A stretch of DNA of 64,000 nt from Natrinema versiforme. GTDB taxonomy: Archaea > Halobacteriota > Halobacteria > Halobacteriales > Natrialbaceae. The notes under the pieces were generated by a model. The model was not told the origin of the DNA and searched no databases. It saw nothing but the letters and a program-made list of their open reading frames with translations. Below, one piece after another: positions 4,643 to 53,224 of the stretch. Position 1 is the first letter of the stretch. Every line of letters begins with the position of its first letter. The DNA lies in the NCBI RefSeq assembly GCF_005576615.1, contig NZ_CP040330.1, forward strand, positions 62,001 to 126,000. The letters are read 5' to 3'. The translations under genes were made by a program, and so were the position numbers.

Positions 4643-6139
4643 ATGACGATTCGCGTCGATTGGCGCTCGAGTTGTAGCCTCACCGGGACGGTCCTGAAGT
4701 GGCTCGCCGTCCCACTGGGTGGACCGCTCGCCCTCGCTCTCGTCGACGGCGACGATCCGGTCCCGTTTTTCCTCACCATCGTCGTCACCGTCGTCTTCGG
4801 GACCGCCCTCGAGAGACTGACCGCCGATCGCGAGATTCAACAACGGGAGGCGTTCCTGATGGTCGCCCTGACGTGGCTCGGGGTCGCGCTGGTCGGCGCG
4901 ATCCCGTTTCTCGTCGCGGGCGACGGGGTGCTCGCACGACCCGTCAACGCCGTCTTCGAGAGCACCAGCGGCGTAACGACGACGGGCGCGACCGTCATCG
5001 AGGACTTCGGCGCACACTCGCGGGCGATCATGCTCTGGCGGGCGGTCCTCCAGTGGCTCGGCGGCCTCGGGATCCTGATCGTCGCCATCGGCCTGTTCTC
5101 GCACCTGCTCGTCGGCGGTGCCCAGCTGATGGAGACCGAATCGCAGACCCAGAACGTCCACAAGCTCCGCCCCCATCTCGACGAGACCGCACGGCTTATC
5201 TGGGGGTTGTACATCGGCCTGACGGTCCTCACGACGCTCGCGCTCTTCGCGCTCTCCCTCGTCGGTCTCGCGCCGGAGATGGACCTCTACAACGCCGTCG
5301 CGCACGCGCTTACCAGCGTCTCCACCGCCGGATTCTCGCCCCAACCCGACAGCATCGGCGCGTTCTCCGCGTCGGTCCAGTGGACGCTGATCCCGGTCAT
5401 GTTCCTCGGCGCGACCAACTTCGTGCTCCTCTATGCCGTGACCCAAGGCGATATCCGCCGGCCGCTCGAGTCCGACGAATTCCGGTTCTACGCCGGCCTC
5501 CTCGCGTCGATTACGGCGATCGTCGTTGCCATGCTCGTGCTCGACCCCGATCTCGCGATGGGGCTCGAGCCGACGGTCCGTCACGGGCTGTTCAACGTGG
5601 TCTCGATGCTGACGACGACGGGCTACGCCTCGGTCAACTTCGATCTCTGGTCGCCCGGCGCGAAGCACATGCTGTTCCTCTGTATGTTCACCGGCGGGAT
5701 GGCCGGATCGACGACGTGTTCGATCAAGTCGCTCCGCTGGCTGGTCATTCTGAAGGGGTTCCGCCGGACCCTGTTCACCGCCGTTCATCCGAACGCCGTG
5801 CGGCCGCTCCGGCTCGACGACTCGGTGGTCGACGAGGAGACGATCGGCGACGTCTTCACGTACGTCACCCTCGCGCTGGTCATCTTCTTCCTGCTCACGG
5901 TCGTGATCGTCGTCGACGCTGCCCGCGTCGGGAACCCGGTCGACGAGTTCGACGCCCTCGGCGCGGCCGCCTCGATCTTCCTCAACATCGGCCCCGCGTT
6001 CGGCGTCGCCGGCCCGTTCGACAACTACCTGGCCTTTTCGCCGCTGACCCGTGCGATCATGATCGTCATGATGTGGATCGGCCGCATCGAGATCATCCCC
6101 GTTCTCGTGCTGTTGACGCCGGAGTTCTGGCGTTCCTAA
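4643..6139 (+). CDS. trkH: TrkH/KtrB-family potassium uptake protein
   Basis: Integral membrane subunit for potassium uptake, central to salt-in osmoadaptation. 498 aa with four repeated membrane-pore-membrane units. The four selectivity-filter loops are visible: TTTGAT (112-117), STAGFS (227-232), TTTGYA (324-329) and NIGPAFG (448-454), each keeping the filter glycine. TrkH normally partners with a cytoplasmic NAD-binding TrkA ring; no TrkA gene is next to it here. TrkA-C-like domains do occur in the permease at 7498-9354, but that is a separate transporter. It converges with a small membrane gene across a repeat-bearing spacer. Confidence 0.93.
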   Translation: MTIRVDWRSSCSLTGTVLKWLAVPLGGPLALALVDGDDPVPFFLTIVVTVVFGTALERLTADREIQQREAFLMVALTWLGVALVGAIPFLVAGDGVLARPVNAVFESTSGVTTTGATVIEDFGAHSRAIMLWRAVLQWLGGLGILIVAIGLFSHLLVGGAQLMETESQTQNVHKLRPHLDETARLIWGLYIGLTVLTTLALFALSLVGLAPEMDLYNAVAHALTSVSTAGFSPQPDSIGAFSASVQWTLIPVMFLGATNFVLLYAVTQGDIRRPLESDEFRFYAGLLASITAIVVAMLVLDPDLAMGLEPTVRHGLFNVVSMLTTTGYASVNFDLWSPGAKHMLFLCMFTGGMAGSTTCSIKSLRWLVILKGFRRTLFTAVHPNAVRPLRLDDSVVDEETIGDVFTYVTLALVIFFLLTVVIVVDAARVGNPVDEFDALGAAASIFLNIGPAFGVAGPFDNYLAFSPLTRAIMIVMMWIGRIEIIPVLVLLTPEFWRS

Positions 6140-6279
6140 CAAACTTTTGCGCTGCGTGCGGTCGCTTCGCGACCGCACTCGGCAAAACTTTGATGAAAAG
6201 CACTCCTCCCTCCCTTACAGGTCGGTCGTCGGCCCGCTCGCTCAGCCTGCGGCTTCGCTCACGGCGGATTTCGGTGAAC
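6140..6279 (-). repeat. dispersed structured repeat, family 2, copy 1
   Basis: Read on the minus strand, this spacer matches the + strand at 52776-52933. Shared parts in order are gttcaccg, a gcgagcgggc-gacgac block, ggagga followed by gctttt, gttttgccgag-type sequence, a hairpin, then cgcagcg-aaaa next to the trkH stop. The hairpin here is gtgcggtcgc-ttc-gcgaccgcac (6156-6178, 10-bp arms), different in sequence from the one in the other copy. It lies between convergent genes. It could act as a terminator or 3' UTR structure. Confidence 0.6.
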
Positions 6280-6362
6280 TGCCTGCCTTTCCCCGAGTCG
6301 CACGGCTCTCGCAGTGCTCGACCCGTGCTCCCGGCCACCGAACGTAGCCTGTTCTCAGTCGC

Positions 6363-25900: not shown

Positions 25901-26143
25901 CGGGTCCAAGAGATGCGCAAGGACCTCGATCTCGACGTGGAGGAGCGGATCGCGCTCGACCTCGAGATCGACGACGACCGCATCGCCGACCTCGTCGCCG
26001 ACCACGAGGACCTGATCAGCGAGGAAGTCCGCGCCGACGAGCGCCGCGCGGTCGAGGACGGCCATCGCAAGGAGTGGGATGTCGAAGGCGTGACGATGGA
26101 AATCGCGATCGAGCCGCTGGCGGCGGCGGAAGCATCTGACTAG
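22937..26143 (+). CDS. ileS: isoleucyl-tRNA synthetase
   Basis: Charges tRNA-Ile; class I synthetase with an editing domain. 1068 aa, typical of the archaeal form. Seen: the HIGH-type motif at 48-60 (GPPYTSGSAHMGT), the CP1 editing insertion with TTTPWTVPANT, the KMSKS-type signature MSKSK at 606-610, the WFWSQL region near 575, and anticodon-binding helices with ISQCPRC and HCWRC zinc-like Cys pairs in the body. The ATG giving MSRFDEVDDQYDP matches the family start; a longer frame to 22775 does not. The 3' end of this gene (IAIEPLAAAEASD) is duplicated downstream in tandem. Confidence 0.97.
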   Translation: MSRFDEVDDQYDPHELEQRVFEYWDDVDAYEQTVEHRSDGESYFFVDGPPYTSGSAHMGTTWNKSLKDVYLRFLRMQGYDVTDRPGYDMHGLPIETRVEERLGFENKKDIEEFGEENFIQECKDYAEEQLEGLQSDFQDFGVWMDWDDPYKTVEPEYMEAAWWGFSKAADRGLVEKGHRSISQCPRCETAIANNEVEYEDVEDPSIYVKFDLAEREGKLVIWTTTPWTVPANTFVAVDEEGDYVGVRAEKDGEEELLYVAEAKHEEVLREGRYDDYEVVEEHTGEDLLGWSYEHPLAEEVPDHVDAEGAFEVYAADYVDTDGDGTGLVHSAPGHGEVDFERGRELGFPIFCPVGGDGVYTEEAGKYEGQFVKDADPEITADLEDNGALLASGTVQHSYGHCWRCDTGILQIVTDQWFITITDVKDELLENIEDSEWHPEWARDNRFRDFVEEAPDWNVSRQRYWGIPLPVWTPEDRDDDEDMIVVGDREELAERVDQDIDPDAVDLHKDTVDDLTITEDGTTYTRVQDVFDVWLDSSVASWGTLNYPADDSEFDELWPADFILEAHDQTRGWFWSQLGMGTAALGESPYQEVLMHGHALMPDGRAMSKSKDILIDPHEAIDRHGRDTMRLFLLSNNPQGEDMRFDWDGMQTMENHLRTLWNVFRFPLPYMRLDEFDPQETTLDDVDSDLELIDEWVLARLQSTKAEMTEHFEDFRQDKAIDALLEFVVEDVSRFYVQAVRERMWAEEDSGSKQAAYATIYRVLRESVALLAPYAPFISEEIYGTLTGENGFDTVHMEDWPEVDEYWQDEQLEVDVALLRAIEEAGANARQQAGRKLRWPVPRVVVAADDDRVVEAVERHTGLLEDRLNAREIELVSPEDRWGELQYSAEADMSELGPAFGDRAGQVMNALNEARIDEPSLEAIEDAVADALEDGEEITDEMVSFVTQTPDDVAGTAFGTDGDDRGVAYVDASLTDDIESEGYAREVIRRVQEMRKDLDLDVEERIALDLEIDDDRIADLVADHEDLISEEVRADERRAVEDGHRKEWDVEGVTMEIAIEPLAAAEASD

Positions 26144-26421
26144 TCCGCCGAACGTAGTGAGGCGGCTTTTTGGACCAGATTTTTGCGCGAGAGGTGACGA
26201 CCGGAGGGAGTCACCCGAGCGGAAAAAGGTGGATGCCGAGATCGCGATCGAGCCGCTGGCAGCGGCGGAAGCATCTGACTAGTCCGCCGAACGTAGTGAG
26301 GCGGCTTTTTGGACCAGATTTTTGCGCGAGAGGTGACGACCGGAGGGAGTCACCCGAGCGGAAAAAGGTGGATGCCGAGATCGCGATCGAGCCGCTGGCG
26401 GCGGTTGAAGCGTCGGACTGA
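26102..26421 (+). repeat. 139-bp tandem duplication of the ileS 3' end
   Basis: The block beginning atcgcgatcgagccgctgg starts at 26102, 26241 and 26380, a strict 139-bp period, giving two full units and a partial third. Each repeats the last ileS codons, the stop, a ccgcc/ggcgg hairpin followed by cttttt, an aggtgac/gtcaccc hairpin and gcggaaaaaggtgg. 139 is not a multiple of three, so later copies are out of frame with ileS. The first two units are almost identical; the third copy of the ileS tail differs (gcggttgaagcgtcggactga). Confidence 0.9.
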
Positions 26422-52517: not shown

Positions 52518-52775
52518 GCGCAGGTGGATGAACAAGGGCGGAATAAGTCTTCTGTGTCGACTGACAGTCAGTAGATACGATGGATTGCGCTTTCTCGAGC
52601 GCCATCGGGTTGTATTCGCTCGGACACGAGCCTCGAGAACGCGGATATGAACCTAGTTCATGCGTCCCGTCGGCGAGTGAGCGGTTCGGAGAACCCGAGC
52701 GGTGCGCGGTTCGGAGCCCGTAGGGCGAGAACCGCGGAAAGCGAACGGGGAACGAAGTGGCCCATGAGCACCGCC

Positions 52776-52933
52776 GTTCACCGCGAGCAGCCGACAGGCT
52801 GCGAGCGGGCTGACGACTGACCCAGAATGAACGTAGTGAATGGCGGGGAAGGAGGAACGCTTTTGATCGAAATTTTACCGAGAGCGCGGCGCTGCCGCGC
52901 TCTCGGTAAAATTTCGCAGCGTAAAATTTCGTT
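52776..52933 (+). repeat. dispersed structured repeat, family 2, copy 2
   Basis: The same ordered blocks as the minus strand at 6140-6279: gttcaccg, gcgagcgggctgacgactga, ggaggaacgctttt, cgaaattttaccgag, a hairpin, then cgcagcgtaaaa at the end of the eIF1A gene. The hairpin here is a 22-bp perfect palindrome (52869-52915), unrelated in sequence to the one of copy 1. In both copies the element ends right at the stop of the adjacent gene and runs antisense to it. Confidence 0.65.
52869..52915. terminator. 22-bp perfect hairpin downstream of the eIF1A gene
   Basis: Left arm gaaattttaccgagagcgcg (first 20 of 22 bases, from 52869) pairs fully with the right arm 52894-52915 across a 3-base loop gct. 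It starts 18 bp after the eIF1A stop (minus strand), where it could stop or protect transcripts. There is no long T-run beyond it. Confidence 0.55.
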
Positions 52934-53224
52934 TTATGGAATATGGCCTTCGTCGCGCAACTGGTCCGCTTCGCTCTTCTCGTAGCGCCACGTGATGTCG
53001 GCTTTCTCGTCTTGCCAGTCCCAGGGCTCGACGAGGACGACGTCGTCCTCACGGATCCAGATGCGTTTCTGCATCTTGCCGGGAATGCGAGCGGTGCGCT
53101 CTGTCCCGTCAGCACAGCGTACTTTGACCCGATTCGCCCCGAGCATGTTCGTGACGGTCGCGAAGACCTCGTCGTCCTCGGGCATCCGGAGGTTCTTCCG
53201 ACCACCCTCACCGTCGTCGCTCAT
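52934..53224 (-). CDS. eif1A: translation initiation factor eIF1A (aIF-1A)
   Basis: Binds the small ribosomal subunit A-site region during initiation. 96 aa, normal. Seen: the OB-fold pattern [32 protein letters not shown], the basic [16 protein letters not shown] and [24 protein letters not shown], all hallmark eIF1A sequence. Start at the ATG giving [15 protein letters not shown]. Followed by the family 2 repeat element at its 3' end; the next gene on the strand is the subtilase, 400 bp away. Confidence 0.96.

Follow-up and report, generated by a model that had tools for sequence, protein, structure and literature searches.

The question raised by this locus is what kind of sequence lies against the ends of eIF1A and trkH in Natrinema versiforme, in two copies that keep the same blocks around different hairpins. 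In the window (the whole stretch of 64,000 nucleotides that was analysed), an earlier note had described ordered blocks shared between 52776-52933 on the + strand and 6140-6279 on the - strand, and direct reading finds them just as described: the central hairpins of the two copies differ yet stay paired, and each copy lies next to the stop codon of a gene to which it is antisense (eIF1A, 2 nt away; trkH, 0 nt away). The element turned out to be longer than these blocks, with a 5' module that extends to about position 52670 in the 52-kb copy and a different one that extends to about 6336 in the 6-kb copy; likewise, the palindrome seen in the 52-kb copy is there, but as a 23-bp perfect inverted repeat with a leftover 3' arm and not as one of 22 bp. 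The parts of the two copies and the genes beside them are:

52670..52774 (boundary approximate), + strand: variable 5' module A' of the 52-kb copy, CGGCGAGTGAGCGGTTCGGAGAACCCGAGCG and the hairpins that follow; similar sequence stands ahead of the eIF1A element in many species
52781..52810, + strand: stem-loop B of the 52-kb copy, CCGCGAGCAGCC...GGCTGCGAGCGGGC, from the aligned copies
52807..52860, + strand: stem C of the 52-kb copy, with tandem GA mismatches, ending in GAACGC right before TTTT, from the covariance model and covariation
52861..52876, + strand: double T-tract of the 52-kb copy, TTTTGATCGAAATTTT, the second T4 lying also within stem D; T4 invariant in 30 aligned copies
52868..52931, + strand: stem D of the 52-kb copy in rearranged form, a perfect palindrome of 23 bp (52868-52916) and behind it what is left of the original 3' arm, CAGCGTAAAATTTCG (52917-52931)
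52934..53224, - strand: D-side gene of the 52-kb copy, eIF1A (Pfam eIF-1a), stop codon 52934-52936
6281..6336, - strand: module A of the 6-kb copy, GGCCGGGAG-hairpin-CTCGGGGAAAGGCAGGC, from the aligned copies
6233..6267, - strand: stem-loop B of the 6-kb copy, from sequence reading and the aligned copies
6200..6235, - strand: stem C of the 6-kb copy, lacking the inner hairpin, GTGC then TTTT (6196-6199), from the covariance model over 6140-6235
6140..6192, - strand: stem D of the 6-kb copy, CAAAGTTTTGC-CGAG-GTGCGGTCGC-GAA-GCGACCGCAC-GCAGC-GCAAAAGTTTG, from sequence reading and the covariance model
4643..6139, + strand: D-side gene of the 6-kb copy, trkH (Pfam TrkH), stop codon 6137-6139

Read 5' to 3' on its structured strand, the element has a core of two stems: C, with repeated tandem GA mismatches and then TTTT, and D, the palindrome CGAAATTTTGC...GCAAAATTTCG. 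The 5' part is optional; it is module A, GGCCGGGAG-(hairpin)-CYCGGGGGAGGGCAGGC, or, in the eIF1A copies, a different module, A', in its place. Stem-loop B is CCGCGAGCGA-(variable)-GCGAGCGGGC, and stem C is GGGCCGACGACYGANNN-(variable hairpin)-NNNGARGGAGGAGTGC, in which one to three base pairs alternate with tandem GA/GA mismatches; directly behind it stands the first TTTT, invariant in the 30 aligned copies, and after a spacer, NATCRANN, comes a second TTTT. Stem D runs CRANNTTTTGC-CGAG-(variable hairpin)-CGCAG-M-GCAAAANNTYG and is usually followed, after 0-6 nt, by the stop codon of the gene on its side (the D-side gene). The variable hairpins are nearly perfect palindromes with loops of three bases, often GNA. 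In the 52-kb copy, positions 1-112 of the covariance model match 52807-52916.

Several smaller features of the anatomy deserve mention. Three positions vary together, one just behind the first TTTT and one on either side of the second T-tract, within stem D; among 82 copies they read G,A,T in 27, C,G,G in 15, G,C,G in 11 and A,T,C in 9, and two of these four sets break the stem D pair at that position. An optional two-hairpin insert, CTAAGCGGG...CCCGCGAGGTCC...GAGATTTT, is found within the 5' arm of stem D at various loci and in various species (L051, L060, L068, L069, L071, L080 and L083), and a second one, GTGGTTCG...CGTCATCACG...CGAACGACAG, stands ahead of the 3' arm of D in L031, L084, L103 and others. 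A classical kink-turn at the CGAG/CGCAG joint was considered and rejected, since one position that it requires can be A or C.

The two window copies belong to a repeat family, as had been suspected. Similarity searches with either copy lead to about 25 places in the genome, and a covariance model gives 28 strong matches, each of at least 41 bits (E of 2.2e-6 or less, the E-values being rough because the calibration was short); its seed of 30 copies comes partly from this genome, and those copies match by construction. The 52-kb copy scores 103 bits and the 6-kb copy 97.5 bits, which, together with the 28 matches, argues that the resemblance between the window copies is not due to chance. All 28 strong matches lie on the main chromosome (3.75 Mb) and none in the remaining 0.93 Mb. 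Near-identical copies are absent from the genome, the best paralogue being about 82% identical. Beyond this species, an exact pattern is present in 92 of 125 genomes of the taxonomic family (a reversed control gave no matches), and the model finds the element in 63 of 116 sampled genomes of the haloarchaeal class (30 of 45 genera); in a phylum-wide sample of 148, the 12 genomes that match all come from the same order. Salt-loving archaea carry up to about 28 copies of the element per genome.

That the pairing itself is kept is evident from the alignment, model and pairing check that the earlier note had called for: the variable pairing covaries, beyond mere conservation of sequence. When a 25-pair structure is laid over 30 copies, 96.3% of cells are paired and 13 pairs have changed on both sides (90 such cells), versus 2-4 doubly changed pairs and 3-12 cells in controls in which the partners were slid by 1-3 columns. 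RNAalifold, with no structure supplied, recovers the same stems, the GA-laced stem C included. In an alignment of 106 copies, which leans towards the model because it was fitted to it, pair 12-116 of stem C is C-G in 55, T-A in 41, T.G in 7 and C.A in 1. The two stems also differ in their strandedness: all 30 copies form a more stable stem C from the structured strand than from the complementary one, while stem D is equally stable on either strand and keeps its T4 tract on both. Pair 15-113 is T.G in 31 copies and C.A in 1; elsewhere in stem C, A.C cells are about as many as G.U cells. A wobble bias in the variable hairpins was considered as proof of RNA and rejected, there being few mismatches and too few clean events, and these long hairpins leave the choice between RNA and DNA undecided.

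The D end is the constant point of the element's position. For 65 of 93 copies, a convergent open reading frame, recognised by a simple test of codon usage, has its stop codon within 0-6 nt of this end, but the D side can also be the 3' end of the SRP RNA gene (about 10 nt away in L009, and likewise in L088, L100 and L136, the last in a genome of another family) or a tRNA gene (L131, L132), and for this reason we take the element to mark the ends of units and not of reading frames. The S8e and S6e groups are different, with the 5' end of a co-directed gene on the D side. Among the copies of this genome with readable neighbours, crude gene calls place none between two divergent genes. By Pfam, the D-side genes encode eIF1A, TrkH, an acyl-CoA dehydrogenase, the PolD subunits (DNA_pol_E_B, DP2), a phosphoribosyltransferase, an HD protein, an MMR_HSR1 GTPase, a TFIIS-like factor, GyrB, a PAN-like AAA ATPase, TbsP, DUF5611, AsnC, L10e, Cpn60/thermosome and DUF502.

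Two observations concern the sequence beyond the D end. The 72 stop codons that adjoin the element comprise 55 TAA, 13 TAG and 4 TGA, a TAA share that looks high for a GC-rich haloarchaeon, judged without a genome-wide baseline. Downstream of the D end in L125, L127 and L129, from genomes of different families, there is a shared sequence, GTACGCCCGGAACACTAAC...GTGCCGGGCG, which has no match in Rfam even at a loose threshold and is possibly an uncatalogued RNA.

Direction is seen best where the element occurs twice. At all 14 double-copy loci (fetched for their two close matches) the elements stand back to back with their D ends outward, and no non-overlapping inward-facing pair was noticed when the match lists were read by eye; in the seven double loci that were checked, 11 of the 14 D ends have the end of an open reading frame at a distance of -1 to 16 nt. 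At eIF1A, the halolysin gene on the A side is present in just 9 of 30 loci and the element persists where it is missing. The D-side genes are nearly always present there, so that the element belongs to the D-side gene. It is nevertheless structured on the strand that runs towards that gene, and the simplest reading of this combination would be a terminator facing incoming transcription. Such a reading has a weak point in copies such as the window's eIF1A copy and the one at gyrB-gyrA, where no A-side gene is directed at the element and incoming transcription could only be antisense or spurious.

The loci are fixed and the hairpins fluid. Among 60 regions from other species, fetched by the core motif alone, 48 share their D-side gene with a copy in this genome, across several genera, and the PAN-like and DUF5611 genes carry the element in other families too. 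At orthologous loci the adjoining 120 nt are 0.88 identical, while orthologous hairpins are barely more alike than unrelated ones (orthologous versus different loci: B 0.76 and 0.71, C 0.68 and 0.59, D 0.64 and 0.61). Across 29 genomes of the genus, most eIF1A loci carry the element, with different hairpins, some have only a remnant of D and some have nothing; between gyrB and gyrA the spacing is 16-30 nt in species without the element and about 200 nt in those with it, so it has been gained or lost there. Four copies have a perfect palindrome in which one D arm overwrites the other (23 bp in the window copy, 26 bp in L027, 21 bp in L074 and 19 bp in L102), and the window's 52-kb copy retains the old 3' arm behind the new one. 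To judge from their sequences, these overwritten arms may be the product of imperfect-palindrome correction by template switching, a process that could explain the “swapped hairpin” of the earlier note. Gene conversion within a genome was also considered as the source of shared modules and found no support: same-genome pairs from different loci are not more alike than different-genome pairs (B 0.69 versus 0.72, C 0.57 versus 0.59), with D slightly higher (0.67 versus 0.61).

We tentatively read the element as a positionally conserved, structured and directional transcription terminator or boundary, a reading that falls somewhat short of probable. A polymerase arriving from the A side, by read-through from a convergent or upstream neighbour or by antisense transcription, would make the structured strand A-B-C; the GA-laced stem C would fold right ahead of the U-tract (UUUU NAUCRANN UUUU), and transcription would end there, just short of the D-side gene. 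Palindrome D would mark the junction and, with T4 on both strands, may also help to end the D-side transcript. Pairing and core motifs would matter and the exact hairpin sequence would not: DNA palindrome correction and nested hairpin insertion would rewrite the hairpins, while selection would keep pairing and position. We infer transcription, termination, direction and protection of the D-side gene from position and structure only. What favours the terminator reading is that stem C meets an invariant TTTT, the compensatory changes and strand bias of stem C, the D end at stops, SRP RNA and tRNA genes, the back-to-back doubles and an element that outlasts halolysin; a T stretch near a TC dinucleotide is moreover the intergenic termination motif reported for Haloferax volcanii (PMC7237163). 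In the same species a hairpin terminated less well than a T stretch, which counts against the terminator reading (PMC7237163), as do the T4, short for a terminator, the copies with no A-side gene directed at them, the wobble in the variable hairpins, which gives RNA no favour, and the roughly even count of A.C and G.U cells in stem C outside pair 15-113. The wider proposal, that these are class-wide haloarchaeal structure-based terminators that bound a fixed set of housekeeping genes, directionally exclude foreign transcription and are rewritten by palindrome correction, is possible but doubtful. To our knowledge, archaea are thought to need no hairpins for termination, and this too counts against a terminator.

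The element could instead be the D-side gene's own 3' element, whose D hairpin on the gene strand, behind the stop, ends or stabilises the mRNA (as a bidirectional terminator or a REP-like 3' stabiliser). Its attachment to that gene, the 0-6 nt to the stop and a stem D equally stable, with T4 kept, on both strands all speak for this; we nevertheless consider it rather unlikely, given that the gene strand forms the weaker stem C in every one of the 30 copies and has no T-tract behind C or D, and that, at S8e and S6e, a co-directed gene has its 5' end on the D side. It is improbable that the element encodes a small RNA, whether one that acts in trans or a cis-antisense RNA directed at the adjoining gene's 3' end. 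The earlier note had suggested looking for antisense RNA, and the structured strand is indeed antisense to the adjoining gene, multi-copy, RNA-like in its structure and terminator-like at its end, but by inspection the aligned upstream sequences share no TATA-like or other promoter-like motif, back-to-back copies leave little room (about 105 nt separate the two model matches of L182, part of it stem-loop B), and loops and hairpins are not conserved. The lack of a visible shared promoter and the little room together make terminated read-through from the other side more likely.

A mobile repeat of the MITE, PATE or REPIN kind, with no function for the host and gathering at harmless gene ends, would explain the many copies, the presence or absence at gyrB-gyrA and palindromes like those of PATEs (PMC3119063). 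We regard it as quite improbable, and the known MITE that the earlier note allowed for is not upheld, because the loci are common to several genera; the compensatory changes, the divergence of even the best paralogues, the confinement of strong matches to the main chromosome and Y1 transposase loci without element motifs tell the same way. Finally, the element may act as DNA, as a cruciform or topological insulator between transcription units like the BIMEs of E. coli. Nearly perfect palindromes with small loops, often GNA, and correction-like arms would fit, as would the frequent position of REPs between convergent genes (PMC1525189), but only one strand shows the tandem GA of stem C and the T.G preference at pair 15-113, and the T-tract is placed as in a terminator, so that this chance seems very slight.

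How the element stands to known systems bears on the terminator reading as well. Like a bacterial intrinsic (rho-independent) terminator, it has a stem-loop and then a T-tract at the end of a transcription unit, stem C pairing up to GTGC right ahead of the invariant TTTT; unlike one, it has a T4 only, a stem broken by tandem GA mismatches, several stems over about 200 nt and a conserved core at fixed loci, and its termination is a deduction. The H. volcanii intergenic terminators likewise have a T stretch near TC and hairpins upstream of some 3' ends; the portion of that work on which we draw describes no repeat family or conserved multi-stem element (PMC7237163). With the REP/BIME and REPIN sequences of E. 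coli it shares repeated, extragenic palindromes at gene ends, often between convergent genes, and (by crude neighbour calls) the avoidance of divergent gaps. REPs and REPINs are short (20-40 bp), high in copy number and accompanied by a REP-associated Y1 transposase; the element is much longer (about 110-200 nt), has tens and not hundreds of copies and is fixed at its loci across genera. No link to Y1 was found: the search covered the Y1 transposase loci of this genome, and these carry none of the core motifs. The PATEs of Haloquadratum are also haloarchaeal, non-coding and palindrome-rich, with no target duplication seen, but they are mobile and have ends in common with IS605-type transposons (PMC3119063). 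The different loci in related genomes and recent insertions typical of MITEs and PATEs are not seen here, where presence and absence were found at gyrB-gyrA only, loci are common to several genera and no transposon link was found at the Y1 loci. Rfam gives no match above the gathering score in the window and, in related loci, just the neighbouring SRP RNA and tRNA genes; literature searches by sequence string and topic, covering few subscription journals, turned up no comparable haloarchaeal element.

In the prevailing view, archaea terminate transcription mainly by means of T-tracts and a cleavage factor. If the wider proposal is true, Archaea would have a dedicated boundary element that blocks antisense transcription. 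A conserved, structured element at the ends of genes such as eIF1A, SRP RNA, gyrB, the PolD subunits, the PAN-like ATPase, the thermosome and TFS would add to this picture a second layer of transcript boundaries, one based on structure; up to about 28 loci per genome make a ready test set. A position that is kept while nearly all hairpin sequence is turned over is a clean natural case of selection on pairing and not on sequence, and some copies look like intermediates of DNA palindrome correction.

One further resemblance lies within the window. The ileS-tail repeat, proposed as a third and shorter member, has a similar layout (hairpin, T5, spacer, T5, hairpin, A5), but the covariance model finds nothing there, so that it is a candidate member at most; it looks like a terminator-like sequence distantly related to the D module. 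A tandem duplication of about 139 bp has doubled the ileS 3' end together with this hairpin/T5/hairpin tail (window 26104-26376; tail repeat about 26143-26376).
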